A DNA stretch of 64,000 nt. Source: Buxus sempervirens (lineage: Eukaryota; Streptophyta; Magnoliopsida; Buxales; Buxaceae). The position numbers and the translations under genes are program-made. Shown here piece by piece: positions 13,625 through 44,567 of the stretch. The notes beneath the pieces were generated by a model, which did not search any database, was not told the DNA's origin, and saw nothing but the letters and a program-made list of their open reading frames with translations. Numbering within the stretch: the stretch's first letter is position 1; every line of letters begins with the position of its first letter. The stretch is from positions 26,096,858 through 26,160,857 of the forward strand of contig OX387190.1 of the NCBI GenBank assembly GCA_947561395.2. Direction: 5' to 3'.

Positions 13625-13730
13625 GAGCCTCCTCCTTGAGCAAATGGCACTCAACTCTTGTTTTGAATTCTCTCAAAGAAGAACTCCAAGAGAAGAAGAA
13701 AACCGCTGCGGAATCGCCTCAAGAACTCAG

Positions 13731-17357: not shown

Positions 17358-17361
17358 AAAA

Positions 17362-18632: not shown

Positions 18633-18809
18633 AAAAAAAAAAAAATCTGGATTGGTGTTCACCTAACCTACTGGTTTACATATATAGGGGTGTGTTTCAA
18701 ATGGAAGCTGACTTGTGTCTTTGTTTTTCTTATTCAGGTACATTTACGTTCAACCCAGGTGCACTTATTTGCAGTCATTGCTCCCGTGACCAGATCCAAA
18801 GCAAGAGCC
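18633..18809 (+). other. Pre-gag segment with putative splice acceptors
   Basis: TTTTTCTTATTCAG|GTACAT ends at 18737, and two further CAGs follow at 18758 and 18774. Element 2 keeps the first one as TTTTCCTTACTCAG|GTACA. This fits a 3' splice site that would join the LTR leader to gag and remove the minisatellite. Confidence 0.45.
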
Positions 18810-20939: not shown

Positions 20940-22063
20940 AAAGAAGAAAAAGAAAATGAAAAAAGAAAACAAAAAGGAAAAAATAAAGTAGGAGAAGACA
21001 CCCCCCAGGGTGCAGAAAATGAGGCAGCCGACCTCATAAAAATAATAAAAAAGAGTGAATTTAATCTTGTGGATCAGCTAAACAAGGTTCCGGCCCAGAT
21101 TTCAATACTGGGCCTTTTGCTGAATTCCGAAAAGCATAGGGATGCATTGTTAAGGGTGCTACAGAGTGCACACGTATCCCAGACCATTGATCCGGACCAG
21201 CTTGGTAAAATGGTTGGTCAAATCTTGTCACATAATGTGATAAGTTTCTCAGAGGGTGAGATCAGCTCAGGTGGGTGTTATCATGTTGACCCTTTGCACA
21301 TCACAGTGCTTTGTAAAGGCTGCATGGTTGCACGGGTTTTAATTGACAACGGGTCGGCATTAAACGTTTGCCCGTTAATCACTTTTACCAAGCTGGGTCT
21401 GGACCAGTCAAGGATCAAACGAAATGGGCGGATAGTTAGGGCTTTGATAGCTCCAAGACCCACTCCCTAGGGGAGATTGAACTGCCGGTCACAATTGGGC
21501 CGAATATCTTTAACATCACATTTGAAGTGATGGATATACCCGCAGCCTTCAATCTGCTCCTAGGAAGGCCGTGGATACATTCGGCTAGGGCAATACCATC
21601 CACGCTCCACCAGAGGGTGAAATATATAAGAGGGCAAAGGGTGATAACAGTCCTAGCCGAAAACTTGGTGCCGCCCATTGTGTCACCTGATGTATCCTTA
21701 ATCAATGTGGACTTGACTGTTGACAAGATTGCATTCCACTCATTTCAGTTTGAGGCGGTAAATTTCATACCTGGGGGTGTGAGAAAAAGAAGGAAAAGGG
21801 GACCACTGCAGAAAAAATGGTCAAGAAAGTGATGGATAAATACTATTTTCACCCAGGGAAAGGCCTCGGGATCAATCTGCAAGGGATGGTGGAGCCAATC
21901 ACGGCTAAGAAACTAGTCCCAAGGGTAGGGTTGGGCTTCAAGCCCAGAGGCTGGAGAAGAATGAAATATGAAGAAGGGGAGAGCAGAAGCAGAGGAAAAC
22001 CCCCGCATCTGAGGGTGAACTTTCCAAAACCATCCTATATAATCCAAATTTCTCCTCCCAGGG
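20940..22063 (+). pseudogene. pro: Aspartic protease region of element 1, frameshifted and interrupted
   Basis: This would be the enzyme that cleaves the polyprotein. The active-site motif VLIDNGSALNVCP has its Asp codon at 21345-21347, and the flap-side block AAFNLLLGRPWIHSARA is at about 21540-21590. Reading requires two frame changes: one near 21449, after GRIVRA, and one in the A/G-rich tract near 21785-21805. The frame then runs KYYFHPGKGLGINLQGM to 22063, where the LTR of element 2 interrupts it. The next part of the coding region resumes at about 36021. Confidence 0.85.
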
Positions 22064-23968
22064 TGTGAGACATGGGAAAAATCACCGGAATGATCATCCC
22101 TCCGTCAACACACGGGCTCAACGCAAAATTGGGAGAGTCGCCACCATTCATGATTTTGGGGTGAGAATGGACACCAAAGAGTTCAAAACAAGCAAAAATA
22201 GCCAAAAGACAAATTTTAGGATAAAAATAATCCTACTTGAAAATCAAATCCAGAGATGGGTAAGGGGATTAGATTATGAACGGGGGAAGGTGTTAGGCAC
22301 CCCCATTCATCCACACGAAGTGGTTGCCAAGTGTATGTTCATGCTAAAAAGAAAATAAGAAGCTTGCTAAAAATCATGAAAAAGCCTTGAAAAAGGAACA
22401 ATGTATGATATTTTCACATGAAGATCTAAATGGATTTTACATCCTCTCTTATGTCAATATCACTTCTGGAGTATTTCAAAAGATGGAAATCAAAGTAAAA
22501 GTGGCCAAAACCAAGTTGAGGCAAATACGGGAATTTTGGTAAAAAATATGCCATTTGCCTTAAAATCATTCAAATCCAATTCTGAATTGAACCAAACCAA
22601 ATCCATTTGAAAGATTAGGGTAAATAAGAGTCTCATGCAAAATTTCACTTCATTCCGATGAAAAATCTAGGAGTTATGCTCCTTTGAAGTTGCTGTTGGG
22701 GATTTTTAAAAGTGGTAAATGGGCAACTTTGGAAAATTGTCTAGAAAAATCCACTGCATAAAAGTCCACGAAATTTGGTGTGATTGAATTTTGTATGGCC
22801 ATCTTTCCATAGAAACTAGCCTCATACAAAAATCCCTTCGGATGTGCCTTGGGTGGTCTCCCGAACAGGCCCCGAAGATCACAGATTTACCCAGAAAAGT
22901 ACAAATGAACAGTTCTGAGTAAATCGGCTACCAATAATTCAAATGGAATCTAAAAATTATGAAACCAACTGGATTTGAAAATAGACTCAAAAAGGAGTAC
23001 TCAGAAATAAAAACCACTCGAATCGGACTTAAAACGAACATATGGCGCTCCGTCGAAGTGACAAGTTCTGTACTTGGACCTGAACTGTCCACTTAACTTC
23101 GACAGAGAAGTGTCAAAAATCGGCTACACAGAAATTCATGAAATTTGGTGGACATAAACTGAACAGCCTCACCTTTCCCATGGTTCTGGAATCACCCCAA
23201 AATTCATCCAGATGATGAACTTATGGGCGTCCGAAGTAAGGGTACAGGTGCTGTCAAGCTAAGCCACTTTTGAAGAAAATCAAATCCGAAAATTGACAAA
23301 AAGTGTGTGATTCGTGTGAGATGAATCCAAAACCTTTGAAAAGCATTTTAAAATACTCCAGAATTTGATTGAGGCCATTTATTAGAGATTTATCACAATG
23401 AATGCAATAAACCCCAAATGTGAGCCTATTCACCAAAAAAAATGTAATATGTGTGCAAGAGTGAAAGGCCAAGCAAGATTAATACAACAATATATCATGC
23501 ATATAGATTCAACAAAATAGGTTCTAGCATAGCCTAGGGTTCCGTTCCATTATCGTTTCCCTCTGTTCTCTCTCCCCGTTAAACACGGATCTTCGAAATA
23601 ATCAAGGGTACTTTGATTATGGAACGGTTTTCAAACATTCAAAAGCCTTATGCTACATGGGTTCTAGTACTAGGGTCAATCCCCAGTCTCGTTTCTCCTA
23701 GATCCGCCTTCACGTTTTACGGCTAGGGGAGTCTTGAGATACTTTGAGCCAGGGAAGGATTTCCACACATACAAACAAGGCTTTACACTACAGAAAGGTA
23801 GAAGAAGAGATCTAGATCTAGGAATATAAAGACAGAAAATAAAAAGAAAAGTTGAGGCTTACCTGAGTTCTGGAGGCGATTCCGCAGCGGTTTCCTTCTA
23901 CTCTTGGAGTTCTTCTTTGCGAGAATTCAAAACAAGAGTTGAGTGCCATTTGCTTAAGGAGGAGCCTC

Positions 23969-23978
23969 CTATTTATAG
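23969..23978 (-). promoter_or_regulatory. TATA box of element 2 3' LTR
   Basis: CTATTTATAG on the plus strand is CTATAAATAG on the minus strand. It would direct transcription leftwards through the LTR and then antisense across element 1's protease and gag. Confidence 0.75.
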
Positions 23979-24143
23979 GCAAAGGTTAGGGTTAGGGTTG
24001 GTGAGAATGGTAGACACAACATAATGTCTATAGCCCACCAACCTTAACCCTAAGGCTATTTCCGAGATTTCCCCTCATTTAATGAGGGATATGATGGTAA
24101 AAGTGAAAAGCTCTCGGAAAACCCTAATTTTGAGCAAAACTTG

Positions 24144-24286
24144 CGTATCCGGTATATCAGGCCGGATACACAAGGGCCTTAAGGTATCCGGTATATAATA
24201 CCGGATACACTAAGCACTGCTTGTATCCGGTACTTGTCACCGGATCCAAAGAAATGTATTTGTATCCGGCCTGAGTTGCCGGATAC
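24144..24286 (-). promoter_or_regulatory. U3 palindrome array of element 2
   Basis: Four units of GTATCCGG...CCGGATAC with centres of 6-9 nt: 24144 (centre TATATCAGG-like), 24184, 24222 and 24261. One arm is damaged (CCGGATCC near 24241). The array sits upstream of the minus-strand TATA box, as in element 1. Confidence 0.8.
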
Positions 24287-24327
24287 AAGGAAAAAAGCCT
24301 TTTTTCCAAATTTTAACACAGGCAATA

Positions 24328-24409
24328 CTTATTTACTTGTAATATCGTTTAAGTAAATGTCCTCGTATTTTTTAATCTCCATTTACTTAAGATATTACAT
24401 GTAAATAAG
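24328..24409. repeat. Long inverted repeat in distal U3 of element 2
   Basis: The arm at 24328-24359 (CTTATTTACTTGTAATATCG...) and the arm at 24380-24409 pair over about 30 bp with one mismatch and a 2-nt bulge, around a 20-nt loop. It is absent from element 1's LTR. Confidence 0.85.
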
Positions 24410-24861
24410 CAAACACCCCCCCCCCCTTTGAATCCATTAAAAATAGTTCCAGACCCAAATTCCCAGTGAATAAAAAGTCAACTTTCCAGTTCTAGGCAAA
24501 ATTCCGATTTTTCAGGTCTGGAAAAAAAGGTTCAATATGTTAAAACCAAGGTATTCGCCAAGATTTAAAATCTCAAAAAATTCTTTTATGCAATAACATG
24601 GCTAAAAACCTGATTACCGGGAAAAATTATCTTGAAATCTGGCTTTAAAAAATATTTCATTTTCTGGGGTCAAAAGTCAACAAAATTCAACCGGAAAAAG
24701 TTTGACTTTGCCCAAAAGATTGAATTCGGGCCTTTTCCTTTACGGCTTTGGATTCAAATGGGTTAAGTATCTCAAACCCAATGCAAAGAATTGAAAATTC
24801 CAATAAAATATTTCTCTCCTTCAAGATTTATAAAAAATCGTGCAATTTTGGGGTGTCTACA

Positions 24862-24877
24862 ACTGCCCCTCTTTGCT
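24862..24877 (-). other. Polypurine tract of element 2
   Basis: On the minus strand GCAAAGAGGGGCAGT abuts the LTR start TGTAGACACC. The same sequence precedes element 1's 3' LTR. It primes plus-strand DNA synthesis. Confidence 0.88.
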
Positions 24878-27831
24878 GGAGTTGTAGCACAATGAACAGC
24901 AAAGAATAGACACAACTCAAAATTGCACGTTTGAAAGACACCTCATTAATTGAACTTGCTTTGGTCAAACAAATGAGTGATAAAAAAACATGGATTTGAA
25001 GATAGCCATTGAAACCCCTGCTGTGTATAGTCTGACGGGGTGGCGTCTCTTCCTTATCTCAGATTTCTTTGAGCTCTCGTGGCTATGAAAAGAAATCTGA
25101 GACAAGCAAATTTTGAAAAGAATGTGGATTTAAAATTGACCTCTGCAAAGTCAATTGCTTTTGATGTTTTTCAACAATAAGGAAGGAAATATTTTATTGA
25201 ATTTTCCTGATTGATTTTCTTATTTGATTTACCTGGGTGCCATTTGATGCCCAAACCTGTGCTTGAATATTCTGCAACTTGCTTTTGCTTCTTCATCTTC
25301 TTGCTCTCTCAATAAGGATGTATGTGCCATTGCTGCCTATAGCCTGCCTTCATTCTTTTCAACTACCCAAGTGAATGCCTTTTCTTGATTGATGGATTTG
25401 AAAATTATGATCTGTTGATCTAACCTCATGCCCTTACCACCCATGACCTCTCATTCATGCCTTCTTACTGCTCCAGTAAAATCCTTCTTCAGAATTAGAA
25501 ACCTTTGTTTAAAGGAGAAAACATGCAACTACTTCGAAGTTTCTTTTTTTTTTTCAAATCCAAAGACTAAGACCTGACTACTTCTTCCAGATGCTGTAAT
25601 TTATTCCAATGAAAACCCAGAGGGAAAGGCGCTGAGCATGCCCCTGTTTTGATTGCTTGAAGTAGTATTTGCCCCTCAGCAGAGACGATCCTCTTTTTTC
25701 CCTTTTTTTTCTTTTCTTTTTTCTTCCTTTTTTTTTCTTCTTTTTCTCTTTCTTCTTTTTTTTCTTTTTTTTTAACATTTGCAAAAAGAAACCCTTATAA
25801 AGGAATGCAAATACAAAAATAGGTTTTATACTAGTGGCCTCAGAATTCTTTAATGCTTGCAAAACCAATGTTTTTATGAAAAGACATAGATGCTCATCAT
25901 AGGCCAAAAATATATTTTTTTGCTTTTTTTGTGCTTTTTTTTTTTTTTTGAAAAATGATCCAATCACTTATTAGCATATAGTCCAAATGAATTAAAATCA
26001 AGTTGAATAATGAAAAGATTATTTCAGAAAATGAAGAAAGACCAAAATAAGCCTTCAGAACCTTTAGAATCATTCCCATGACCATCGGCTTGTCAATTGA
26101 TGCTCCAGATATGCCGACTCTTTCAATCTGACTATTTTGCCCCAGTCTAGAAAGACATTTTCCTTCATCCAATTGAAGAGCAATTGTTTCTCCATTGTAT
26201 CCATGATATGAGAATTTATGACTTCAACTTCAGCAATCATTTCCTAATGGCAATTTTGATGGCCATCAACTTGTTCACAAATGCTTTATACCATAGCTCT
26301 GATTATGTTGCTTCAATCTTGAAAAGATGATTTTCCTCAATCACTCGAAAAGTGACTGTATCTCAAAATAACCACCAACATGGGGACTTCACCTGGATTT
26401 ATGCCAATTCTGGACTTTCCTCTCCGACGATTTCCTTCTTTCTGATTGTTTGCCATGTAGCGCCCTTCTAGGTTTTCACTACATTTTCTCCATTTTTCTC
26501 TTTTTTTTTCCTTAATCCTTCATCACCAGCAGCTATGTAGTTAAAACCGCCTTAATTCAAAATTTCTTAATCAAAGAGGACTTATGGATTGGACGAAATG
26601 AAGGCTTGGTGTTTGTTTAGAAAGAAAAGGAATAAAAGGCTCAAATACCATATGATCTAATGGGTTAACTGAAATTGCAATTTTTAAGGCATTTCTTCCC
26701 TTGGAATGAATACAAAATTGTCCCCCAATAATGAAGTTCTTCACCCACTTTGATTTCTTCATTTAAAACTTGTTTCCCATTATTGAACTTCTTTTCTCAT
26801 TCTTCCCTTCACAATTTTGAAGATATAGCATTTGATGATCTGTTTTTCTTCTTTCTTCCCTCTTTTTTTTTTTCATTTCTTTACCCCCTTTTCTGAAAAC
26901 ATCTTCAAAATCCCTTTTGAACTTCAATAATGCCCCCCTTCTCTTGTCCCTTCATTCTTTCTTTTTTATGCCTTAATAAATTTGCCCCAGTGTGGGGTTG
27001 CAATTCTCAGTTTTGGTTACTTGGAAAAATTTATCAAGCTCAAAGAGTCTAACTAGGGATTTCAAAAAATTTTGGGGATATAAGAAAGAAAGGCCTCTTA
27101 TCATTTTAAGAAAAGTTTGAATTTTCAGACTTGACAGAGTTGTACTACATGACTGGCTCAGGATTTTTCTTTTTCTTTTTTTTTTTTTTTTTTGTCACCG
27201 CCACCTGGGAAGATAAAATTTCAATCATAAAACATCCTTCTCATCGGATCAGCCTCTTAAATCGCAATCCAAATCTTTCCATATTTTCCGATGGAGAGTG
27301 CAAACTAGGAGTCATCTTCAAATGCAAAAATTTCATCTTCCAATTTCTTCTTCATCTGCTTTTCCTTGATGAGCAAGTGATGCGATCCTCTCTGTATTTT
27401 TATGAAATAAATCTTTGTACTTGCTGCTTTCAAGTGAGAACTTCGGGTCATCTTTGGTTCTAAAGTCCATAAGATTGGTCACTTCAAAATTTTGCAGAAA
27501 TATTCTTCTCATGACACTTAAAAAGATTTGAATTTTCATATAAAATGTCTTTTTCTTCGATTTCGGTCTCAAAATTGAGCCCAATGTCGAAGTCATATTC
27601 AACTTAATGAAATTCAATGAGAGATATGACTCATAAGTAAAACAGGACCTTGTTGAAAACATTTTTTTTTTTTTTTAGAAAAATGTTAAAGGGGAAAATC
27701 TTTTTTTTTTTTTTAACAAAAATCTTAAAGGAAAACTCTCTTTTTTTTGTTTTTTTTTTTGAAAGAGCCTTTATTGAAATCACTTCCTGAGAACAAGGCT
27801 CCTTAGGATCCTCAGGAAATGTGCATTCTTC
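24878..27831 (-). other. Non-coding 3' region of element 2
   Basis: Between the gag stop and the polypurine tract lie 3 kb with no pol-like frames in any reading direction. It includes several poly(T) and pyrimidine tracts on the plus strand (25690-25775, 27160-27195, 27660-27760), which give Lys-rich open frames that are not genes. I see nothing homologous to the antisense genes of element 1. Confidence 0.7.
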
Positions 27832-29904
27832 TTAAGGGGGTTTCTTTTCAGAGAACAAGGGAATTTGAAAATTGCCCCTGTTCTCAAAGGCAAAAGCTAA
27901 CTTTTCTTTCTTTTTCAGAAAATTTCTTTCTGCTGCTGAGTGAGGCAAGTTTCTCTTTTCATGATTTGGGATGATCCCCTTCTCTGGGGTATTGTGCTCA
28001 GTTTCTGAAAGAAGTGACATTCCTTTATACGGAATCTGGATAGCAGCCCAGTCAATAAATGGAAGCTTAAACTTGGCCTCAATCTTTTCATTTAAATCTT
28101 CTTCTTTCCTTTCCTGGGATTCTCCTTTTTTAGTTGCCTCTACTTCATTTCCTTCTTGTATGAAGAGTGGTTCCATACCCTTCAGACAATCCAATTTGTC
28201 CATACTGAACTCTTGTTCAACATCCAGTGCTATGCCATTTGTCTGCTCAAACTGCTCAAATGGAATTGTTTGCACCTCCTTTGCCCTTTCACCTGTCATT
28301 TCATTTTCTTTCACCTTCGGCTTAAAATCTGCCCCTGTGTGAGTCTCTTTCTCCACATGGCCCCCTTCATCTTCTTTTTCAAAATAAACCTGGACTGTGG
28401 TACCAACCGGAGAAATAAGTTGAGAAGGGTCAAATCTTCTTTTTCCTAAAAAAATTGACCCTATTGCATTTGAGCTGCTTGCCCCATTGTTGCTGGTGGG
28501 AGGAGGAGTGGGTGTGACTGAATTGAATGATAAAGAGTTATTATCCAGCAAATCCTGAATTGCATGCTTTAGGGCCAAGCAACGATCTGTGGTATGCCCT
28601 GGAGTGCTCATATGATACTCACAAATTGCAGATGGATCATAACCCTTCCCCTTGCTTGCATGAGGATTTGGCAACCTCAGAGTCACGTAACCCTTTTGAA
28701 GTAGGGTAGGCAAAAGTTCAGATGGTCTCATAGGCAGTTTTGAAAACTCCCTTCTCTTCCTTACTTCTGTTTCCTCCTTCACAGGCTGTGCAGAAGGGAC
28801 ATTAATTTGGATAGGCAGCAAAGGAACTGGATGGGCATTGATTTGAACGGGTCCCTTGGGAAGCTGCACCATATTCACTTCTGCTTCTCTCCTTTCCTCA
28901 TATTTTCTCTTTCCATTACCATTTCCCTTGTTATGAGTGGAGTCTTGTTGACTGATCATGGTGGAATAATCAATTATCTTGCCAGATTTGATCTCATCCT
29001 CAATCCGGTCTGCCACCTGTACCAGGGCAGCAAAATTGGTGGTGATCTGACCCACTAGGTGATTGTAGAAGGGTTGCCCCAGCGTACCCATGAATGTTGA
29101 GATCATTTCAGGTTCCAGCATAGGCGGCCTGACCTGAGAGGCAGCCTCTCTCCACCTCTTGGCATATTGCCGCACAGATTCATCTTTGCCCTTGCTCATC
29201 CTCATAATGTCGTACCGGTCTGGCACAATCTCCGAGTTAAATTTGTATTGGTCTAAGAAGGTGTCTGCCAGGTCCTTCCATCCTCTAATCTTCCCATGAT
29301 CAACTGTGGCGAACCACCTAAGAGCTGACCCGGTCAAACTCCTCTGAAAGAGTTGGATCAGTATGCCATCATCCCGGCCAAATTGGCATAGGGCCCCGCA
29401 GTATAGTTTCAAGTGGCTCATAGGGCAGCCTGTGCCATCAAATTTGTCGAAGTCCGGGTACTTGAACTTGGCCGGTAGACATACATCCGGGTACATGCAG
29501 AGATCATCAAAGGTGGTACCTCCGTAGCTGTTTCCCCCCTTCACCTCTTTCAGTTCTTTCTGGATTCTCTCGATCTTGTGCAGGAGTTTCCTTTCCATCT
29601 CTTCCCTGGCTTTTTCCTTTTCCATTTCTTTCTCAGAGTCCACCGTGTTTTCCCTAATCAGAATGGGTTCAGGGACTGGTTCAGAAATGGGCTCAGGCAT
29701 GGGTTGAGCCGAAGGCGGAATGTAAGCCTGAGGTGGTGGTGGTGCCTGATGGGAAGTTGATGCTTGGTTTTGGGCCTGGGCCTGTTGGGCTTGAGCCGCC
29801 AGTAAGTCTCCCAGCATCTTGGCCAGACCAGCCACTTGCTCCTGCAGCTGAGCAAAGTGTTGAGCGGGTACGGTGGCTTGGGCTTGGTTCTCTTCAGTGT
29901 TCAT
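27832..29904 (-). CDS. gag: Gag polyprotein of element 2, fused to a post-protease segment
   Basis: From the Met at 29904 (MNTEENQAQATVPAQ) it has 690 residues; the frame is open to 29973, past a likely splice acceptor at 29955. The N-terminal two thirds matches element 1 Gag closely: SHLKLYCGALCQFGRDDG, ALRWFATVDHGKI, QVRPPMLEPEMISTFMGTL, then the knuckle CEYHMSTPGHTTDRC. After that the sequence skips the entire protease. It continues into an acidic linker and LPFIDWAAIQIPYKG, whose counterpart LPFIDWAAVKIPEEV in element 1 lies downstream of the protease (36142). The frame has no internal stop. It looks like a maintained structural protein of a non-autonomous element, with its protease removed in frame. 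Confidence 0.9.
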   Translation of the reverse strand: MNTEENQAQATVPAQHFAQLQEQVAGLAKMLGDLLAAQAQQAQAQNQASTSHQAPPPPQAYIPPSAQPMPEPISEPVPEPILIRENTVDSEKEMEKEKAREEMERKLLHKIERIQKELKEVKGGNSYGGTTFDDLCMYPDVCLPAKFKYPDFDKFDGTGCPMSHLKLYCGALCQFGRDDGILIQLFQRSLTGSALRWFATVDHGKIRGWKDLADTFLDQYKFNSEIVPDRYDIMRMSKGKDESVRQYAKRWREAASQVRPPMLEPEMISTFMGTLGQPFYNHLVGQITTNFAALVQVADRIEDEIKSGKIIDYSTMISQQDSTHNKGNGNGKRKYEERREAEVNMVQLPKGPVQINAHPVPLLPIQINVPSAQPVKEETEVRKRREFSKLPMRPSELLPTLLQKGYVTLRLPNPHASKGKGYDPSAICEYHMSTPGHTTDRCLALKHAIQDLLDNNSLSFNSVTPTPPPTSNNGASSSNAIGSIFLGKRRFDPSQLISPVGTTVQVYFEKEDEGGHVEKETHTGADFKPKVKENEMTGERAKEVQTIPFEQFEQTNGIALDVEQEFSMDKLDCLKGMEPLFIQEGNEVEATKKGESQERKEEDLNEKIEAKFKLPFIDWAAIQIPYKGMSLLSETEHNTPEKGIIPNHEKRNLPHSAAERNFLKKKEKLAFAFENRGNFQIPLFSEKKPP

Positions 29905-30134
29905 AGCTCTGCCTTTGGATCTGGTCACGGGAGCAATGATTGCAAATAAGTGTACCTGAGTAAGGAAAAGCAAAGAAACATGTCAGCTCCCATTTAATCT
30001 GAGTCACACACCTATAAATGTAGATAAGTGGGTTAGGTGAACACAAGTCCGGATTTATTTGTTTTTTTTTCTATATTTTTCCATTTTTTGTTTTGTTTTT
30101 TTTTATTGTTGGAATATTTTAGGGCTTCCAAAGG
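29905..30134 (-). other. Pre-gag segment of element 2 with conserved acceptor
   Basis: On the minus strand CTTTTCCTTACTCAG|GTACA ends at 29955, matching element 1 around 18737. Upstream is a short T/A-rich stretch and the edge of the 43-bp repeat array. Confidence 0.45.
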
Positions 30135-31290
30135 TCCCAAAGAATGAGAAATGTCTAAAATTCAGAGGCTTTTAGACGGCCCAAAGGATACGTGTCTATA
30201 ATTCAGAGGCTTATAGACGGCCCAAAAAAGTTGTGTCTAAAATTCAGAGGCTTTTAGATGGCCCAAAGGATTGTGTCTATAATTCAGAGGCTTATAGACG
30301 GCCCAAAAAAGTTGTGTCTAAAATTCAGAGGCTTTTAGATGGCCCAAAGGATATATGTCTATAATTCAAAGGCTTATAGACGGCCCAGAGGATATGTGTC
30401 TATAATTCAGAGGCTTATAGACGGCCCAAAGAAATTGATGTTTGAAATTCAGAGGCTTTCAAATGGCCCAAAAAGGTTTTTTCTAAAATTCAGAGGCTTT
30501 TAGAAGGCCCAAAGGATATATGTCTATAATTCAGAGGCTTATAGACGGCCCAGAGGATATGTGTCTAAAATTCAGAGGCTTTTAGATGGCCCAAAAAGGT
30601 TGTGTCTAAAATTCAGAGGCTTTTAGATGGCCCAAAGGATATATGTCTATAATTCAAAGGCTTATAGACGGCCCAGAGGATATGTGTCTATAATTCAGAG
30701 GCTTATAGACGGCCCAAAGAAATTGATGTTTGAAATTCAGAGGCTTTCAAATGGCCCAAAAAGGTTGTTTCTAAAATTCAGAGGCTTTTAGAAGGCCCAA
30801 AAAGATTTGTCTAAAATTCAGAGGCTTTTAGATGGCCCAAAAAGGTTTGTCTAAAATTCAGAGGCTTTTAGATGGCCCAAAAAGGTTGTCTAAAATTCAG
30901 AGGCTTTTAGACGGCCCAAAAAAGTTGATGTTTGAAATTCAGAGGCTTTTAGATGGCCCAAAGGATATATGTCTATAATTCAGAGGCTTATAGACGGCCC
31001 AAAAGGGTTGTGTCTAAAATTCAGAGGCTTTTAGATGGCCCAAAAAGGTTTGTCTAAAATTCAGAGGCTTTTAGATGGCCCAAAAAGGTTGTCTAAAATT
31101 CAGAGGCTTTTAGACGGCCCAAAAAAGTTGATGTTTGAAATTCAGAGGCTTTCAAATGGCCCAACAAGATTGTGTCTAAAATTTAGAGACTTTTAGACGG
31201 CCCAAAATAGGTTGATGTTTGAAATTCAGAGGCTTTCAAATGGCCCAAAAAAGTTGTGTCTAAAATTCAGAGGCTTTTAGACGGCCCATT
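30135..31290 (-). repeat. Tandem hairpin array, about 27 units of 40-44 bp
   Basis: Every unit has the form stem, constant TTCAGAGGC, complementary stem, then (A/C)(T/C)GGCCCA and a short spacer (plus-strand reading). Four stem types occur: GTCTAAAA/TTTTAGAC (30153-30177), GTCTATAA/TTATAGAC (30194-30218), TTTGAAA/TTTCAAA (30441-30463) and TTCTAAAA/TTTTAGAA (30481-30505). Changes in one arm are matched in the other, while the loop stays fixed. Some units have one unpaired closing position (TTTTAGAT). The array lies in the leader of element 2 upstream of gag and is absent from element 1. Confidence 0.93.
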
Positions 31291-33075
31291 TTTTGATTTG
31301 ATTGGTAAAAAGAAGACCAACCAAGGGTTCATGGAATATTCTAGGGCTTCCAGAAGTCCCATTTTTTTATAACTTGATTGGTAAAAAGAAGACCAACCAA
31401 GGGTTCATGGAATATTCTAGGGCTTCCAGAGGTCCCACTTTTTTTTTTTGACTTGATTGGTAAAAAGGAGACCAACCAAGGGTTTTTATGGAATATTCTA
31501 GGGCTTCCAAGGGTCCCAATTTTTTGATTTGATTGATAAAAATAACCAACCAAGGTTTTCATGGAATATTCTAGGGCTTCCAAGCGTCCCAATTTTTTTG
31601 ATTTGATTGATAAAAATAACCAACCAAGGTTTTCATGGAATATTCTAGGGCTTCCAAGGGTCCCACAAATGTTTTGATTTGATTAATAAAAATAACCAAC
31701 CAAAGGTGTCTTGGAATATTCTAGGGCTTCCAAGTATCCCACAAATGTTTTGATTTGATTGATAAAAATAACCAACCAAAGGTGTCTTGGAATATTCTAG
31801 GGCTTCCAAGTATCCCACAAATGTTTTGATTTGATTGATAAAAATAACCAACCAAAGGTGTCTTGGAATATTCTAGGTCTTCCAAGTATCCCACAAATGT
31901 TTTGATTTGATTGATAAAAATAACCAACCAAGGTTTTCATGGAATATTCTAGGGCTTCCAAGGGTCCCAATTTTTTTGATTTGATTGATAAAAATAACCA
32001 ACCAAAGGTTTTCATGGAATATTCTAGGGCTTCCAAGGGTCCCAATTTTTTGATTTTTTTTTTTGATTTGATTGATAAAAATAACCAACCAAGGTTTTAA
32101 TGGAATATTCTAGGGCTTCCAAGGGTCCCAATTTTTTTGATTTTTTTTTGATTTGATTGATAAAAATAACCAACCAAGGTTTTAATGGAATATTCTAGGG
32201 CTTCCAAGGGTCCCAATTTTTTGATTTTTTTGATTTGATTGATAAAAATAACCAACCAAGGTTTTCATGGAATATTCTAGGGCTTCCAAGGGTCCCAATT
32301 TTTTGATTTGATTGATAAAAATAACCAACCAAGGTTTTCATGGAATATTCTAGGGCTTCCAAGGGTCCCAATTTTTTGATTTGATTGATAAAAATAACCA
32401 ACCAAAGGTTTTCATGGAATATTCTAGGGCTTCCAAGCGTCCCAATTTTTTTGATTTGATTGATAAAAATAACCAACCAAGGTTTTCATGGAATATTCTA
32501 GGGCTTCCAAGCGTCCCACAAATGTTTTGATTTGATTGATAAAAATAACCAACCAAAGGTGTCTTGGAATATTCTAGGGCTTCCAAGTATCCCACAAATG
32601 TTTTGATTTGATTGATAAAAATAACCAACCAAAGGTGTCTTGGAATATTCTAGGGCTTCCAAGTATCCCACAAATGTTTTGATTTGATTGATAAAAATAA
32701 CCAACCAAAGGTTTCTTGGAATATTCTAGGGCTTCCAAGTATCCCACTTTTTTTGATTTGATTGATAAAAATAACCAACCAAGGTTTTCATTTTTTTTTT
32801 GATTTGATTGATAAAAATAACCAACCAAGGTTTTCATGGAATATTCTAGGGCTTCCAAGTGTCCCACTTTTTTTTGATTTGATTGATAAAAATAACCAAC
32901 CAAGGTTTTCATGGAATATTCTAGGGCTTCCAAGTGTCCCACTTTTTTTTGATTTGATTGATAAAAATAACCAACCAAGGTTTTCATGGAATATTCTAGG
33001 GCTTCCAAGTGTCCCAAAATTCTTTTTTTTTTTTTGATTTGATTGATAAAAATAACCAACCAAGGTTTTCATTTT
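31291..33075 (-). repeat. 76-bp minisatellite in the leader of element 2
   Basis: About 23 units of the same family as 17362-18632, in reverse orientation. Units near 31640-31920 and 32500-32740 keep the ACAAATGTTTTGATTTG segment and full 76-bp length. Others have poly(T) in its place. Units near 31300-31500 read GGTAAAAAGAAGACC. The mosaic order of subtypes suggests repeated unequal exchange or template switching. Confidence 0.95.
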
Positions 33076-34862
33076 TTTCTTCTTCCAATTTGCTGAATTT
33101 TCTCAGTTTTCAAGTTCCAAAGTTTGACTGACATATGTTTGAGTTGAGTTGGTGTCAAAAAATATGACACCTTGGTTTCCTCTTTGATTTTCAAACTTAG
33201 GTTAAATCCTGAAAGAATACTTTATTTTATTCTTTTTGTTTTTTTTTTTTTGTATTTTGGAACATTTTTTTATGTTCTTTTCGGGGTGCCTAAGGATGAT
33301 CCCAGTGTTTTAGGCAATTTATTCTGAAAATTTGGGCTGAACAGCCAATTTGTGCATTTTTTGAACGTATCCGGTATAATATACCGGATAAGGATATGCC
33401 TTATGGTATCCGGTTACCCTAACCGGATACGCGCATATGCCTTTGTATCCGGAAATACATACCGGATATGAATAGAAGTGTTATTAACCAGCCTGAGTTG
33501 CCGGTTATTGCCGAAATGGCCCTTTTTGACTCATTTTTTTCACCAGATTAGTTTTTTTTTCATTCCCACTTGATGTTCACCTTAATTTGACCCTCAAAAA
33601 TTGCCCCAAATTGGGCTTGGACATCATACTTGCAAAATTCCCCAAATTTAGGAAAAGAACATGGCTTTACCTTGCCACCTTGTATTACCTTCATTCAATA
33701 TGGTATTCACATTATACCTTGGCCTGTAAAACATGCAAACGGCCTTCCCACATTTACACCCAATTCCCTAAACGCAATTGTGTGCTTTTAGCCGAAAACG
33801 TGTTTCTCCACCATCAAGCGTATGGTTTTTGGGTTTTGGCTTAATTGGCAACTTAGAACTCAAGTCTAGTGATGCCCGGAATCGAATCACAGATCCCATT
33901 GTCATCACATCATTGACCCAAATTCTAAGGTAAATGTTTTCACTTTCGCTTTCCGAAGTCACGACCTCGGTGCGCCAAGCTACACACATTCATGGTTCAA
34001 CTTCCTAATAGGTAAAGGGTAGGCTGTGCAAATTGTTTCAAGTGCTCAAGTGCAATTTTAAATTGTGGTAACATTCACAACGTCCCAGCCCCTTTTTCGT
34101 AGCCATGCATTCAATTTCAAGCCAAGGTACATATGACAAAAATAATGAAGCCAAATACAAGCAAACAAGCACCAAAACAACTAAATATGCACAAAAAATA
34201 TTACATGCCCAAAAAGTGTTCTACAAAACATGTCATTTGTACAAACAACCATTAAATCAAGTAAGCATGCTTGAAACTCAAAAGCATTCCCTAAAATCCC
34301 AGAGTTCATGCTCTTTTTCATGCTCAAAGTGTACCATTTATACCCCAAATTGGAGCCTAAAATTTTAGCATTACTTGACATGATACCACAGTGTTTCAAT
34401 GAGGTAAAACATGCTTAAAATTTCCAGAAATATGCACTAAAATTTTCAGGTTTCTCATGCTCAAAAGTGCATCACTTATACCCCAAATTAATGCCCAAAC
34501 ATTTACCAACTACTTGACATGGTATAAGGAGAGTTTTGATGGTAACAACATGCTTGAAAACCCATATGATGGCTACTGAATTTACCGATTTTTGCTCAAT
34601 GTTTTCATGCTCAAATAATAGCACTAAGAACCTCCTAACCCAAGGCAAACAAAAACAAGTAGGCATGCACAACAAAGTAAGGCCCTAAACATGATCCTTA
34701 GCATATCCAAGCATACACACATGCCTTCATCAATGTAAAATTTAAAAGTATCCCAATCAGATTTAGAATACACCAATATACACCAATAAAGTAAACAAAA
34801 TAGCAAGCATTCAAAAGTGAGGAAAAAGCATGAATATACACAAATAGGCTTAAATCCACAAG
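33076..34862 (-). other. Leader of element 2, non-coding part
   Basis: It is closely similar to 15545-17357 of element 1 in reverse orientation, including the palindrome array and the GAGCATGAAAA blocks. No gene is seen. Confidence 0.75.
33367..33468 (-). promoter_or_regulatory. Leader palindrome array of element 2
   Basis: Three units: GTATCCGGTATAATATACCGGATA, GTATCCGGTTACCCTAACCGGATAC (10-bp arms, 5-nt centre) and GTATCCGGAAATACATACCGGATA. The middle unit pairs better than its counterpart in element 1 (16988-17011), so the two arms have changed together. Confidence 0.8.
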
Positions 34863-34880
34863 TCCCCAGCAGAATCGCCA
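34863..34880 (-). other. Primer binding site of element 2
   Basis: On the minus strand TGGCGATTCTGCTGGGGA, two bases inside the 5' LTR. It differs from element 1's by one base and again fits the 3' end of tRNA-Arg. Confidence 0.8.
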
Positions 34881-34882
34881 GT

Positions 34883-36020
34883 TGTGAGACATGGGAAAAA
34901 TCACCGGAATGATCATCCCTCCGTCAACACACGGGCTCAACGCAAAAAGTGGGAGAGTCGCCACCATTCATGATTTTGGGGTGAGAATGGACACCAAAGA
35001 GTTCAAAACAAGCAAAAATAGCCAAAAGACAAATTTTAGGATAAAAATAATCCTACTTGAAAATCAAATCCAGAGATGGGTAAGGGGATTAGATTATGAA
35101 CGGGGGAAGGTGTTAGGCACCCCCATTTATCCACACGAAGTGGTTGCCAAGTGTATGTTCATGCTAAAAAGAAAATAAGAAGCTTGCTAAAAATCATGAA
35201 AAAGCCTTGAAAAAGGAACAATGTATGATATTTTCACATGAAGATCTAAATGGATTTTAGATCCTCTCTTATGTCAATATCACTTCTGGAGTATTTCAAA
35301 AGATGGAAATCAAAGTAAAAGTGGCCAAAACCAAGTTGAGGCAAATACGGGAATTTTGGTAAAAAATATGCCATTTGCCTTAAAATCATTCAAATCCAAT
35401 TCTGAATTGAACCAAACCAAATCCATTTGAAAGATTAGGGTAAATAAGAGTCTCATGCAAAATTTCACTTCATTCCGATGAAAAATCTAGGAGTTATGCT
35501 CCTTTGAAGTTGCTGTTGGGGATTTTTAAAAGTGGTAAATGGGCAACTTTGGAAAATTGTCTAGAAAAATCCACTGCATAAAAGTCCACGAAATTTGGTG
35601 TGATTGAAGTTTGTATGGCCATCTTTCCATAGAAACTAGCCTCATACAAAAATCCCTTCGGATGTGCCTTGAGTGGTCTCCCGAACAGGCCCCGAAGATC
35701 ACAGATTTACCCAGAAAAGTACAAATGAACAGTTCTGAGTAAATCGGCTACCATTAATTCAAATGGAATCCAAAAATTATGAAACCAACTGGATTTGAAA
35801 ATAGACTCAAAAAGGAGTACTCAGAAATAAAAACCACTCGAATCGGACTTAAAACGAACATATGGCGCTCCGTCGAAGTGACAAGTTCTGTACTTGGACC
35901 TGAACTGTCCACTTAACTTCGACAGAGAAGTGTCAAAAATCGGCTAGACAGAAATTCATGAAATTTGGTGGACATAAACTAGACAGCCTCACCTTTCCCA
36001 TGGTTCTGGAATCACTCCAA
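34883..36020 (-). repeat. Truncated 5' LTR of element 2
   Basis: It matches 22064-23200 almost base for base, then stops inside the LTR at ATCACTCCAA and runs straight into element 1 coding sequence. About 1.66 kb of the LTR is missing, including the TATA box, transcription start and splice donor. Confidence 0.92.
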
Positions 36021-36298
36021 TACTGGGAGCAGCAGATGGGCCTGGGCCACAGCCCGAGCAGCAGTTGGATTATTTTGGGGATGTTGGGGCCTTCTTCGCC
36101 ATGACTGAAGGCGAAAAGACTGATGGTGACATGGACCTGCCGTTCATTGATTGGGCCGCAGTGAAGATTCCAGAGGAGGTTACTTCTGAACTGGGCCCCG
36201 TAGCAGAAAAGGGCAGTACCCACCCGGTGAATAGGCATCGGATTCTAGGTTTGAAGAGCGGGCTTTCCCTATTTCCCCTGCTCCCCAAAATTTTGTAA
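36021..36298 (+). pseudogene. Element 1 coding segment between protease and RT
   Basis: The frame picks up from 22063 after the nested element and reads a Pro/Gln-rich stretch, then AFFAMTEGEKTDGDMDLP and LPFIDWAAVKIPEEV. It resembles the end of the element 2 Gag fusion. It ends at a stop at 36298. Function is unknown; Ogre-type elements have an intron near this position, so this may be exon edge sequence. Confidence 0.7.
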
Positions 36299-36743
36299 TG
36301 AACAATTGAGAGGAAACTCCCCTTACCTTTGAAGCAACGTTAGTTCGGCAAACTGACGCGGGTTCCAAAAAAAAAACTCCAATAGTGGAATGCCATTTCC
36401 CTGAAGGTTCTAATGGGCCTTCGTCTTCAGGGGAATTATGTTTAGAAGGCCCACAAAAACCCAAAAAGATTTTTCTATTTTTTCTAGAAAATTTAATTTT
36501 TTCAAAAAAGTCCAAACCACTTATGAACCATATAATCAGACCGAATTGGACCAAGTTGAATATGACTTCGACCTTGAGCTTGACTTTGATCTCATGGGGG
36601 TCGAAGAAGAGACCGAGGTCGAAGAAGAAGACGTTCCAAAAGAAATTGAATATCAATTGGAACGTCATGAAAAGGGGGTCCAACCTAATATTGAGGAGAC
36701 CATATCCATAAATCTTGGGACCAAAGAGGACCCAATTACAAGG
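36299..36743 (+). pseudogene. Degenerate protease-RT linker of element 1
   Basis: A frame from 36438 reads a Tyr/Asp/Glu-rich acidic stretch (LDQVEYDFDLELDFDLMGVE) and ends in ETISINLGTKEDP, a block that in Tat elements introduces RT. The expected roughly 30 residues between this and the RT start are missing and the frame changes at about 36740, so a small deletion lies here. Between 36299 and 36437 no frame is kept. Confidence 0.6.
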
Positions 36744-38891
36744 ATGTGTTTGCTTGGTCGTATCGGGACATGCCGGGGTTGGACACTGACATGGTGGTGC
36801 ACAAGTTGCCAATTTTGCCAGGGGTTAAGCCGATTAAGCAGAAGCTGAGAAGATTGAAGCCGGAATGGACCTTGAAGGTCAAGGACGAAGTGGTCAAACA
36901 ATTTCAAGCCGGATTTTTGGCCGTCTCTACGTACCCAGAGTGGCTCGCAAACATAGTGCCGGTACCCAAGAAGGACGGAAAAGTCCGAATGTGCGTGGAC
37001 TATAGAGACTTGAACAGGGCAAGCCCGAAGGACGATTTTCCGCTTCCACACATCGACATTCTGGTCGATAATACTGCGGTACATAGCCTGTTTTCCTTCA
37101 TGGATGGTTTCTCGGGGTACAATCAGATCAAGATGGCTAAGGAGGATCAAGAGAAAACAGCATTTATCACACCTTGGGGCACATTCCACTACACAGTCAT
37201 GCCGTTTGGGCTCAAGAACGCTGGGGCAACATACCAGCGGGCCATGACTGCACTATTTCATGACATGATCCATAAGGAGATGGAGGTCTACGTGGACGAT
37301 ATGATTGCCAAATCATGCAAAGAGGAGGACCACTTGATCAATCTAAAGAAAGTGTTTGATCGGCTCAGGAAGTACAGTCTACGGCTTAACCCGGCTAAAT
37401 GCGTCTTTGGGGCTACATCAGGGAAGTTATTGGGGTTTATAGTGAGCCGAAGAGGAATTGAAATTGACCCGGCTAAAGCCAAGGCCATAATTAAAATGCC
37501 AGCACCCAGAACTGAGAAAGAGGTCAGGGGTTTTCTTGGAAGGATTCAATACATAAGCCGATTCATAGCACAGCTCACTGCTATCTGTGAACCAATTTTC
37601 AAACTTTTGAGGAAAGATAACCCGACGGTCTGGAATGAGGACTGCCAGCAGTCATTTGACACAATAAAGAGGTATTTGCTGAACCCACCTGTGCTAGTGT
37701 CACCAACTCCAGGAAGACCGCTGATCCTGTACTTGTCAGTGTTGGAAACGTCGATGGGATGTGTCTTGGGGCAACATGATGAGACTGGTAGAAAAGAAAG
37801 GGCAATTTACTATCTGAGTAAAAAATTCACGGAATATGAAGCCAAGTACTCACCATTGGAGAAGACTTGTTGTGCTCTAGTGTGGGCAACTCAGAGGCTA
37901 AGGCATTACTTCCTTAGTCACTCCACACTATTGATATCCCGGATGGACCCGCTGAAGTATTTATTTGAGAAACCGGCACTGACTGGCAGGACGGCAAAGT
38001 GGCAACTGCTACTGTCCGAATTTGACCTCACATACATCACCCAGAAGGCAATAAAGGGTCAAGCCATAGCTGATCACCTGGCTGCACATCCTCTACCAGA
38101 ATATCAACCCTTGAAGACCAACTTTCCCGATGAGGCGATTCTGTACACTGAAGAGGAGGACAGTGAGAGTTCTTGGCAGATGTTCTTCGATGGGGCCGCC
38201 AATATGAATGGGAACGGAATAGGGGCAGTCTTGGTTAAACCAGATGGTTCACATATCCCGATTGCAGTAATGCTGAGATTCCAGTGCACCAATAAGATAG
38301 CAGAATATGAAGCATGCATAATTGGATTACAAGTAGCCATGGATCATGGAGTAGAGGAACTTGACGTATACGGGGATTCGAGTCTTATCATCTTCCAAAC
38401 AACTGGTGAGTGGAAAACCAAGGATCACAAATTGATCCCCTATCACCAGTACTTGGAAGAAATAAGCACAAATTTCACTCGAATTTCCTTCAACTATATG
38501 CCAAGGGCCAAGAATCAATTTGCGGATGCTCTAGCAACCTTGGCTTCAATGATCAGCATACCAGAAGGAGTAGACATCAGACCACTGGAAATTGAGGTCC
38601 GAGATGAACCGGCTTACTGTCTCGTTCTAGAGGGAGCACCAGAAGAAGAAACACCATGGTTTCAAGATATCAAAAATTTCTTGAACAATCGGAGTCTGCC
38701 AGAAAATGCCACTGCTACTGAGAAGAGGACAATACGGAGATTGGCAAGTCAATTTCTGCTAAGTGGTGGACATGTGTACAAGAGGTCACATAACGACATT
38801 CTGCTCAGATGTGTAGCCAAGATGGAATCGGAAAGACTGATTGAGACTGTACATGGAGGAGTCTGTGGGCCCCATATGAGTGGGCACATGC
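36744..38891 (+). pseudogene. pol: Reverse transcriptase, RNase H and second (archaeal-type) RNase H, integrase start
   Basis: The frame is open throughout this segment. RT starts DVFAWSYRDMPGLD; catalytic residues lie in FSFMDGFSGYNQI (Asp codon 37103) and YVDDMI (Asp codons 37295 and 37298). The first RNase H region contains ETSMGCVLGQHDETG and YSPLEKTCCALVWA. A second RNase H follows, with a full D-E-D-D set: FFDGAANMNG (38189), YEACIIGL (38309), YGDSSLI (38375) and ADALATLAS (38525). This extra archaeal-type domain is a Tat-lineage trait. The integrase zinc-binding start (VHGGVCGPHMSGHML) is cut off at 38891 by solo LTR A; the frame reads on into the LTR to 39088 without meaning. Confidence 0.93.
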
Positions 38892-40300
38892 TGTGCGCAC
38901 CCCATTTTCGGGCCGCACAACGAGGTGCATGCGAAGTGATGCTCGCCTCGGGACTGATTTGGAGTCGCCACTGCCTGAGAGGTGCAACCAGACACAAAAG
39001 GGGGCCCCTATTCGGGCCTAATTATTCTGGTCTGCGGCTTATTAGAGTTCTGAGTAAGCTCTCGGTTGCGGTCCGGGGAAGTCCATAGACACCCTGGTCC
39101 GCCCCGTTGGTTTGACGGGTCCCTTGGATTCCCTGGTTTGCGAGTCAACTCAATTCTAAACTCACCTGTTCCTAAACCAGCGTGCACACTCGGTTAAGCC
39201 TGGTGGGATCACCTGAGTGGTGTGGGTCCCTATTATTTAATTTTATCTTTTTATCAATTAATTAGGTGGGTCTGGTATGGGCCCTGTTGGAAGGCCCATT
39301 GGAATCCAAGTTTGAGCTTAAGTCAAGCCCAAGGCCCAATTCGGGTTATTGGGTAACCCTTATTGGATTTGGTTATTTTTGTTTGGGTTGGGTCGAAGGT
39401 ATCTGGGTCTAAAAATCGGATTTTTGAAGAGTTCAAGGAACTGACCGCATATCCTATGCTGTTAAGGCGCAACCGTAGATCAAGGGCGGTTTCGCTTGAA
39501 CCGCTCTGAGTATACAGTTTGTGCCCGAGAATCCGAAAATAGCCAGAAAGGCCACGAGAATTTTTTGGTCTTCTTTACAAGGGCATCCGTGAGCTTCTGT
39601 GGGTCTCTGAGCAAACCCACAGTGGTTTGAATATCTCATCTTAGCCCAAAAGGCATGCCTTCACCCATTCATCCCCAAATACATTCGATTGATGTAAACA
39701 AACATCTAAGCAATGTACAAGCTAAACTAAACAGCTATGATTATGCATGGAGATGATGCTTTAAAACTCTTGACAGCAGAGGATAAGTAAAGAAGGCAAC
39801 AAAAGGATCATAGACTATGCATGCATCTTAGAATGATCTGGTGCATATGTAGATGATATAGGGAGTGGGCTTAATGTGCTGTACTTGTGGTTACCTCTTG
39901 ATGTGAACGAAATGCATGCTATAGGAGGCATTACAGCAAAGATATATATACAGCCCCCTTTTACCTTGGCTCAAAACATGCTCATTCTCATATATATAAA
40001 ATAAAAGACAACAAGAAGCAATACCTTGGGGTTTTACAACCCTTTTTGAGATGTATAGGCTCCTCCTTGAATCAAGAATGGCTACTGGAGCATCTTCTTT
40101 GGCCACCAACAACAAGCTTCTCCTCCTCTTCAAGTTCTTAGATGAGGGATGGATGAAGGAGGGAGGGGTAGGACAGAATTTTTGTGGTGTTCGGGGAGCT
40201 AAGGAGGCAAAGGAAGGTGGTCTCGTACCATGAGCAATGGGGGAGAAGGGGTGGGAACAGTCCACCGGATCACCAACCCCCTACTTACTGTTCGGATTTC

Positions 40301-40310
40301 CTATTTATAG
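40301..40310 (-). promoter_or_regulatory. TATA box of solo LTR A
   Basis: CTATTTATAG on the plus strand (CTATAAATAG on the minus strand), just downstream of the palindrome array in the minus direction. Confidence 0.7.
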
Positions 40311-40323
40311 AACACAGAGGCAA

Positions 40324-40603
40324 AACCGCACATACAGTGCGGTTATAACGCGGTTTGGTCTGAACCGCACAGTATGTGCGGTTTGGTCTGAACCGCATGC
40401 TATGTGCGGTTCGGCTATGTCTTTTCAGCAATGATTAGGGGACAAACTCGCGCAGGCGCAGACTGACAAACCATGCAACCGTACTGTATGTGCGGTTGAC
40501 TTTTCGACGCCGCTTGCTCTGATTGGCTCGCGAGGGCGGTGGCCGAAAAAGTCAACCGCACAGCATATGCGGTTGCGAAGCAACCGCATATGCTGTGCGG
40601 TTG
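40324..40603 (-). promoter_or_regulatory. U3 palindrome array of solo LTR A, AACCGCAC/GTGCGGTT type
   Basis: Six units: 40324-40344 (8-bp arms, 5-nt centre), 40363-40383 (9-bp arms, 3-nt centre), 40390-40412, 40476-40498, and a pair at 40553-40603 that together form a perfect 24-bp inverted repeat (40553-40576 with 40580-40603) around GAA. The core differs fully from elements 1 and 2 but the position relative to the TATA box is the same. Confidence 0.85.
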
Positions 40604-40829
40604 CGGCAAATCTTTCAGATTTGCCCCTTTTCTCTCCACTTTTGGCTTGAGTTGACGGCTGAGGTGACTCAGCCGCCCACTCGGACGAATCATGCTCCTC
40701 CAATTTTTATTATTTCCCATTTATCTCAAGTAATTCAATTAAGATATTTTTGCCCCTTCAAGGTTTGACCCTTCAGCTAGGTTTTTTCATTTTCAGCAAT
40801 TCTGGGGGTGCAAAAATGAGGTGCTGACA

Positions 40830-41798
40830 GAGCATGATTGCTGTGTACATGTTAGGAGGTGCCATCAATGCCAAATCTATGCAGATAACAAGCATGCACC
40901 CCCAGGTGAGCTGCACAACATGACATCACCCTGGCCCTTCTCTATGTGGGGCATAGATGTCATTGGCATGATCTCCCCTAAAGCATCGAACGGACACAGA
41001 TTCATCTTGGTGGCAATTGATTATTTCACTAAGTGGGTGGAAGCAGCATCATATGCAAATATCACAAGCAACCATGTGATCAAATTTTTGAAGCACAATA
41101 TCATTTGTCGCTATGGACTGCCAGGTGCCATAATATCAGACAATGCTTCAAATATTAAGAACAAGGACATGAAGAAAATGTGTGAACAGTTTCAGATCAC
41201 CCATCATAAGTCAGCTCCGTACAGGCCAAAGATGAATGGGGCAGTAGAAGCAGCCAACAAGAATATAATGAAAATCATTCAGAAGATGGTAGTGAGCTAC
41301 AAGGATTGGCATGAAATGCTGCCACTTGCTTTACATGCCTACAGAACCTCGATCCGGACTTCAACTGGGGCAACACCGTACTCCCTAGTCTATGGGATGG
41401 AAGCAGTCTTGCCCGTGGAAGTAGAGATCCCATCACTCCGAGTGCTCATGGAAGCAGAACTAGAAGAAGCCGAATGGGTCCAGTCGAGACATGATCAACT
41501 TAACCTGATAGAAGAAAAGCGGTTAAAAGCGCTGTGCCATGGACAATTGTACCAGAAGAGAATGGCCCGAGCCTACAATAAGAAAGTGAGGCCCAGAACT
41601 TTCCAAGAAGGAAACTTAGTGCTAAAGAAAATCTTACCATTTTTGGAAGATCCTCGTGGTAAGTTCAAGCCCAATTGGGAAGGTCCATATGTCGTCAAGA
41701 AAGTCCTGTCAGGGGGTGCACTCATCTTAGCAGAAATGGATGGGTCAGATTTTCCTGAGCCCATTAACTCTGATGCGGTAAAAAGGTACTTTCTTTGA
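40830..41798 (+). pseudogene. pol: Integrase of element 1, C-terminal part
   Basis: It resumes at EHDCCVHVRRCHQCQIY, the Cys pair of the HHCC zinc-binding domain. The catalytic triad is present: Asp in WGIDVIG (40956), Asp in IISDNASN (41139) and Glu in NGAVEAANK (41247), spaced D-60-D-35-E. The chain continues to GKFKPNWEGPYVVKKVL, the GPY/F-type motif, and ends KRYFL with a stop at 41798. The coding sequence itself has no stop; the loss is the interruption at 38892-40829. Confidence 0.93.
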
Positions 41799-44438: not shown

Positions 44439-44548
44439 TGGATGTGATGGGAGCAAGCTAGAACTCAAGAGGAGGAAGAAAAAGGCAAAAAAGGGGGTTT
44501 CTAAACTCAAAAACTCGTAAAAAATGCTCAAATCCCGAGGCAGGTTGC

Positions 44549-44555
44549 ATTTATA
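44549..44555 (-). promoter_or_regulatory. TATA box of the DUF7745-like gene
   Basis: ATTTATA on the plus strand (GCTATAAATGC on the minus strand) lies between the palindrome array and the start codon at 44438, giving a short intron-free leader of about 80 nt. Confidence 0.65.
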
Positions 44556-44567
44556 GCATCTTTTAAC

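Follow-up and report, generated by a model that had tools for sequence, protein, structure and literature searches.

We found that the 5' leader of a gag-bearing Ty3/gypsy element in Buxus sempervirens carries a tandem array of short hairpins whose stems vary at three positions, with both arms changed together at each, and whose arms are linked to each other far more closely than to the adjoining spacer downstream. Our best explanation, to which we give about even chances as a whole, is that these are structurally constrained hairpins of the sense RNA that are reshuffled by reverse transcription and would act on unspliced genomic RNA. The RNA-structure part of this explanation we judge probable, and the packaging role that we infer for the array is tentative.

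Results

A hairpin array in the leader of a nested retrotransposon

The window (i.e., the whole 64,000-nt stretch of DNA analysed here) contains an array-bearing element (22064-36020, minus strand) nested in a related host element (Table 1). The two elements match at 92.2% over 2212 nt of LTR and at 92.3% over 4313 nt of leader plus LTR half, and their gag products at 69% of amino acids over 559; the closest other gag relatives are three Tetracentron sinense proteins (35-39%). The host element has gag, RT, two RNase H, integrase and antisense plant-mobile-domain ORFs. Its second RNase H (aRH) is seen in one ORF (36746-39088) that holds PF00078, PF17917 and a separate PF13456, and the plant mobile domain (PF10536) lies in antisense ORFs at 43728-44531 and 46623-47597. 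In the account of PMC6317226, an aRH besides the RT-RH is the rule of the Tat/Ogre lineage and a plant-mobile-domain extra ORF occurs in 57% of surveyed Ogre elements; because both features match, we assign the host element as Tat/Ogre-like. The array-bearing element may lack pol, since no pol domain was found in the 8 ORF pieces scanned against Pfam (of 36 listed on both strands of 24300-27900).

The hairpin array, hereafter the 41-bp array, sits between a gag-proximal hairpin and a second, 76-bp tandem array, which places it in the 5' leader of a gag-bearing Ty3/gypsy element, as the first-pass annotation had proposed. In the leader of the host element in the window we find a 76-bp array (17362-18620) and no array of 41-bp units. 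A search of the 64-kb window against Rfam gave 0 matches at gathering score.

Table 1 Features of the array-bearing element and its host element, in window coordinates.
Feature	Position	Strand	Remarks
Host element, Tat/Ogre-like	13241..53815	+	LTRs 13241-15526 and 51516-53815, 98.3% identical
3' LTR of array-bearing element	22064..24312	-	TATA box and predicted 5' splice site CTCAG^GTAAGC; extent by similarity to other LTRs
gag-bearing ORF (PF03732), predicted exon 2	27832..29955	-	First gag ATG 29904
Predicted 3' splice site TTACTCAG^GTACAC	29955..29956	-	Pyrimidine-rich; CTGAC branch-point-like motif upstream; 51 nt before gag ATG
Predicted gag leader intron sites	donors 13730 (+), 23862 (-); acceptors 18737 (+), 29955 (-)		Donors in LTR; acceptors before gag
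Gag-proximal hairpin of the 76-bp kind	30109..30131	-	TTGGAA / TTCCAA
41-bp hairpin array	30153..31288	-	28 hairpin units, spacing 39-43 bp, 7-bp stem and 9-nt loop; the element's sense RNA corresponds to the minus strand
Sole mixed-stem unit of the window	30930..30960	-	Left arm TTTGAAA, right arm TTTTAGA; arms from two different types
76-bp tandem array	31289..33072	-	Unit is a TTGGAA-TATTCTAGGGC-TTCCAA hairpin and a second, GU-rich hairpin
TATCCGG...CCGGATA hairpin cluster, same leader	33368..33470	-	Stems constant, loops variable
Primer binding site of array-bearing element	34863..34880	-	
5' LTR of array-bearing element	34883..36020	-	U5-side half only; 1138 nt vs ~2249 nt in 3' LTR

About 27 tandem units had been claimed, and we count 28 (30153-31288). 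The core stem is paired at 7 of 7 positions in 27 of them. A constant loop had also been reported, and TTCAGAGGC is indeed exact in 25 of the 28 units, with TTCAAAGGC in two and TTTAGAGAC in one. On the sense strand, the loop has a conserved start, GCC, and a conserved GGGC stands immediately 5' of the stem. Within the window, 4 pairs are altered on both sides (28 units, 8 distinct rows), a number reached in 3 of 500 shuffles. The covariation score, computed with plus-strand letters and with G.U counted as a pair, was 0.393 against a shuffled mean of 0.179 (0/500 shuffles as high), and sliding the partner position gave at most 0.067.

The two arms of the stem change together at three positions

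We extended the comparison to 39 fetched loci from the best 40 scored of 1209 candidates matching this array; they are biased to close relatives because they were chosen as best matches to it. Arrays in these loci have 17-42 hairpins. The unit pattern tolerates two loop changes and one tail change and leaves the stems free, which limits the loop and tail variation visible. It gave 1064 matches in the window and 39 loci. Still counted among these are one near-copy locus (L010, 99.6% identical to L009), one window match outside the array and at least 11 hairpins like those of the 76-bp array; such extras, or units without both flanks, are omitted from the sets of 1010, 958 and 865 units. The 1010 units come from 39 sequences (the window and 38 loci, L010 left out as a near-copy).

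Full pairing was seen in 962 of the 1064 matches, in only four stem types: TCTAAAA (551), TCTATAA (309), TTTGAAA (94) and TCTGAAA (8). TTTGAAA differs from TCTAAAA at two pairs, and TCTGAAA/TTTCAGA is a type altered at pair 4 alone, all 8 copies of it in a single locus, L032. Over the 1010 units, Watson-Crick pairing was more frequent than independently varying arms would give at pair 3 (0.978 vs 0.558), pair 4 (0.984 vs 0.796) and pair 6 (0.959 vs 0.790), and not at pair 8 (0.519 vs 0.496). The stem core is thus 7 bp long with three paired-variable positions. Of the four or more two-sided positions claimed by the first-pass annotation, four hold in the window alone and three (pairs 3, 4 and 6) hold across the larger set; four independent stem types are not supported, as pair 8 does not covary. 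The fourth type it listed, TTCTAAAA/TTTTAGAA, was rejected as an independent case because it rests on pair 8.

The remaining stem is nearly invariant. Between-locus diversity was 0.005 at stem positions 1, 2, 5 and 7, 0.022 in the loop, 0.051 in the tail and 0.315 in the spacer of the same units. The 676-Mb assembly as a whole holds at least 6739 units by one exact pattern; genome-wide counts are non-independent observations. A base other than T at right-arm position 1 beside the same loop was found at 34 places, of which 32 differ from a known right arm by one or two bases and 2 are unrelated (right arms only). For the two commonest types and their mixtures, pair 3 was A/T in 4356 exact counts, T/A in 2102, A/A in 84 and T/T in 26 (i.e., matched in 6458 of 6568). 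The excess of A/A over T/T (84 vs 26) likely reflects lineage effects.

The first-pass annotation had proposed a covariation test over a tree of units. We used our own R-scape-like test (344 unique of 997 units, 60 null simulations), with the tree as a guide only, since units recombine. L3-R3 was the sole significant pair (E 0.017), with an observed score of 259.8 against a highest null of 280.7, so that at least 1 of the 60 null simulations lay above it; L4-R4 (E 9.2) and L6-R6 (E 13.5) were not significant. The test therefore upheld pair 3 and not pairs 4 and 6, and independent paired events are few.

Arms stay linked while units are shuffled

The order of units varies between elements whose leaders are 94-96% identical; we compared array order in the 22 highest-ranking of 655 pairs, and it was shared by L009 and L010 alone, which are 99.6% identical. 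Because order differs between leaders this similar, we infer that units have often been shuffled. In the sampled units, linkage between the arms (L3-R3) was D' 0.98 with normalised mutual information (MI) 0.85, across a 13-nt identical tract. Linkage from R3 to the downstream spacer, across a 13-nt tract identical but for R8, was D' 0.10 with MI 0.01, and the upstream spacer was partially linked to L3 (D' 0.75, MI 0.34); the 2x2 tables behind these D' values omit cells with other bases. Expressed as breakage per nt (-ln D'), with tract lengths taken by eye, the loop tract breaks about 25-30 times less than the left side and about 100 times less than the right. Finer spacer classes softened the contrast yet kept it (arm-arm 0.76, downstream 0.18, upstream 0.50). 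The earlier claim that pairing is kept against ordinary minisatellite drift agrees with this linkage of the arms beyond their linkage to the spacers.

Wobble bias and folding point to the sense RNA

The sense strand of a 449-nt part of the array (30152-30600) folded better than shuffled sequence (z -2.48, 0/100), whereas the opposite strand did not (z 0.29, 63/100). One-sided changes at pair 6 offer a second comparison. Because the arms are mirror images, a left C-to-T and a right G-to-A at position 6 stand in the same DNA context; in the sense RNA, the left change gives an A.C mismatch and the right change a U.G pair. Genome-wide, we counted 174 U.G against 93 A.C (binomial 8e-7, with shared descent ignored); because the patterns accept either base at pair 3 (A or T), each count includes a few mixed stems. 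In the fetched sample the bias was not significant (30 vs 20 units, or 25 vs 20 with within-locus repeats merged).

Leader DNA in the same orientation had no G>A excess at non-CpG sites (0.020 vs 0.023 C>T per site), and in the AGA/TCT context G-to-A was 0.037 against 0.053 for C-to-T (12 sites each). At CpG sites G>A exceeded C>T (0.021 vs 0.016, 25 sites each), and pair 6 is not a CpG. Together, the wobble bias and the sense-only folding point to the sense RNA. The proposal that the RNA hairpin is selected thus gains from the genome-wide bias to sense-paired changes and is held back by the few independent paired events.

A predicted leader intron contains the array

A donor, CTCAG^GTAAGC, is predicted 115 nt past the TATA box in all three full LTRs of the window (3/3). 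From an LTR ATG to this donor runs an 87-nt (29-codon) open frame that is in phase with gag; this ATG is just 28 nt downstream of the first base of the TATA box and could coincide with, or precede, the point where transcription really begins. In the array-bearing copy, the 5' LTR is without the donor half, and the donor is read from the 3' LTR. A strict pattern found the acceptor in 29 of 40 sequences. A looser one located it in 31 of the 40; in these 31, frame 0 was the longest 29 times and ran open as far as the fetched DNA extended 24 times. Nine of the 40 had no clear acceptor. The gag similarity of the two elements starts at the acceptor's own ACTCAG.

We predict from these sequence features that the leader (i.e., the primer site, both arrays and 58-72 ATGs) is an intron of the gag mRNA. 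Lying inside this predicted intron, the array would be present only in unspliced genomic RNA. If the intron is real, Gag would begin inside the LTR.

Discussion

We propose that purifying selection on the folded sense RNA would keep the arms matched, and that template switching by reverse transcriptase, between repeats and between co-packaged RNAs, would reshuffle the units. Through the predicted leader intron, the array would act on unspliced genomic RNA only, and its most likely role there would be that of a repeated, multivalent Gag-binding or packaging element. Scrambled between copies and yet still paired in its stems, the array amounts to a natural experiment. A single genome supplies thousands of units, on which tests of linkage and wobble can distinguish selection for RNA shape from mere joint inheritance. 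Should the array be a cis signal of genomic RNA, it would offer a direct way to learn which RNA plant Ty3/gypsy elements package.

The main alternative is that the hairpins spread without function: their edges would promote switching by reverse transcriptase or polymerase, so that whole hairpins are copied, and the sequence of one arm may be copied onto its partner. We consider this unlikely, although a serious contender. In retroviruses, deletion of direct repeats rose when stem-loops lay between them, and a copy-choice model predicts stalling at stem bases (both in PMC3187697); template switching can also create and maintain stems (PMC8794818). Such copying fits the break of linkage in the adjacent tail and its retention across the loop, and the same linkage picture would arise without selection if the tail were a hot spot of switching. 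Selection on any single hairpin should be weak because each array has 17-42 of them, and mixed stems are not purged, one mixed-stem lineage being found in four loci (L012, L026, L034 and L046). This redundancy and the spread of the mixed lineage speak for copying without function, and the wobble bias opposes it, since no sense-strand G.U bias is predicted and yet U.G outnumbers A.C. Loop-inverted hairpins, one trace expected of template switching inside a hairpin, numbered 0 in 39 sequences, which counts against this alternative, as does the passage of mixed stems between elements; such switching may nonetheless contribute to the pairing. Founder amplification, in which a few chance double changes were multiplied in tandem and no force maintained pairing, is an improbable account of the whole. 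The first-pass annotation had itself raised this objection, and it keeps some weight: paired events are few, just four fully paired types occur in the 1064 matches, and pair 3 alone passed the tree-based test. However, the arms remain linked while a neighbouring tract of equal length is scrambled, one-sided changes are biased to the sense-paired kind, and the three common core stem polymorphisms are all paired in units whose spacer is about 60-fold more variable than the other stem positions. There is also the type altered only at pair 4, though it is confined to L032. As sole cause, founder amplification is disfavoured.

The remaining two alternatives concern what the hairpins do. Unspliced, the leaders of the two elements run 3283 and 4976 nt from primer site to gag ATG and contain 58 and 72 ATGs, so linear scanning would be unlikely to reach gag, and the hairpins might control gag translation by shunt or internal entry. 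The predicted splice, however, would join the LTR to gag in frame with the array removed, and we hold translational control to be very improbable. A role at the DNA level (protein-binding palindromes, chromatin or a satellite seed) draws on the seeding of satellites by Ogre tandem repeats described in PMC7004042 and on the constant palindromic stems elsewhere in the same leader. A palindrome predicts equal numbers of the mirror-image one-sided changes at pair 6, against the unequal counts above, and has no need of a fixed non-palindromic loop; of the readings weighed here we give this one the least credence.

Returning to the constrained sense-RNA hairpin, we can picture a more specific version, which is speculative and rather unlikely in full. 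The GCC at the loop start would pair with the GGGC box as a small pseudoknot, loop and 5' box would be recognised, and the stem would serve as scaffold. A gag-only element would have multiplied this module within a leader that is removed by splicing, giving its unspliced RNA an advantage over that of full-length relatives in competing for Gag, and reverse transcription would reshuffle the modules at their edges.

Tandem repeats of plant retrotransposons have usually been treated as drifting by-products. Those of Tat/Ogre elements are known (PMC7004042, PMC6317226), and the FabTR-type arrays that PMC7004042 describes lie in the 3' UTR, downstream of gag-pol, whereas the present array occupies the 5' leader, inside a predicted intron, and repeats a hairpin with paired stem changes. 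This 5' position and a repeat unit that is itself a paired structure are what make it unusual. Among the literature matches listed, no paper dealt with LTR elements whose leaders carry tandem hairpins with paired changes in the stems. Retroviral leaders do carry packaging and dimerisation hairpins, which are few and distinct; here there are about 28 near-identical copies with a loop that is non-palindromic by inspection and a putative role. Gag-only, non-autonomous LTR elements are known as the TR-GAG type, and the array-bearing element resembles them in its LTRs, primer site and gag ORF; it may also share their lack of pol, given that the 8 ORF pieces scanned held no pol domain. For BARE, PMC3735527 describes separate RNA pools for translation and packaging, with a spliced gag RNA; the array described here would be carried only by unspliced RNA. 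The two-sided stem changes with a kept loop are like template-switch mutations (Monttinen and Loytynoja 2022; PMC8794818). Unlike the mutations described there, our hairpins have a sense-strand wobble bias, no loop inversion and a one-pair type confined to one locus.

Other hairpins of the two elements

Hairpins of the 76-bp units are perfect or mismatched at pairs 6-7, and because they are often mismatched there, leader hairpins in general are not so constrained. In these units, changes at loop position 8 go along with changes at tail position 13 (G-C in 365, A-T in 27 and others in 22 of 414). We treat this co-change as a lead only towards the pseudoknot of loop and 5' box, since the A-T units resemble a single founder lineage and some misfits are 41-bp units caught by the pattern. 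In the 76-bp arrays of the window (31289-33072) and the loci, the change is from GGG:CCC to AGG:CCT, as loop-tail pairing would give.

The TATCCGG...CCGGATA cluster of the leader was rejected as a second covarying case: across 36 loci there was no covariation in H1-H3, and H4 had a register misfit. In it, 36 cells were of sense G.U and 27 of the other kind. Clusters of this type occur in both elements, in LTR, leader and 3' part (13331-13427, 16911-17050, 24145-24280, 33368-33470 and 44569-44720), and within them the loop AACTCAG recurs with the stems TAACCGGC and TATCCGGT and, inverted, GTATCCGGC. Upstream of the integrase ORF (40324-40420 and 40553-40603) lie hairpins with AACCGCAC/GTGCGGTT-like arms and a perfect hairpin with 24-bp arms and a 3-nt loop. 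Locus L032 (G000:C14:9316900-9324200) is a divergent copy in which TCTGAAA/TTTCAGA hairpins are mixed with the common types, and its leader has a different hairpin cluster, CCGTAT...ATACGG.
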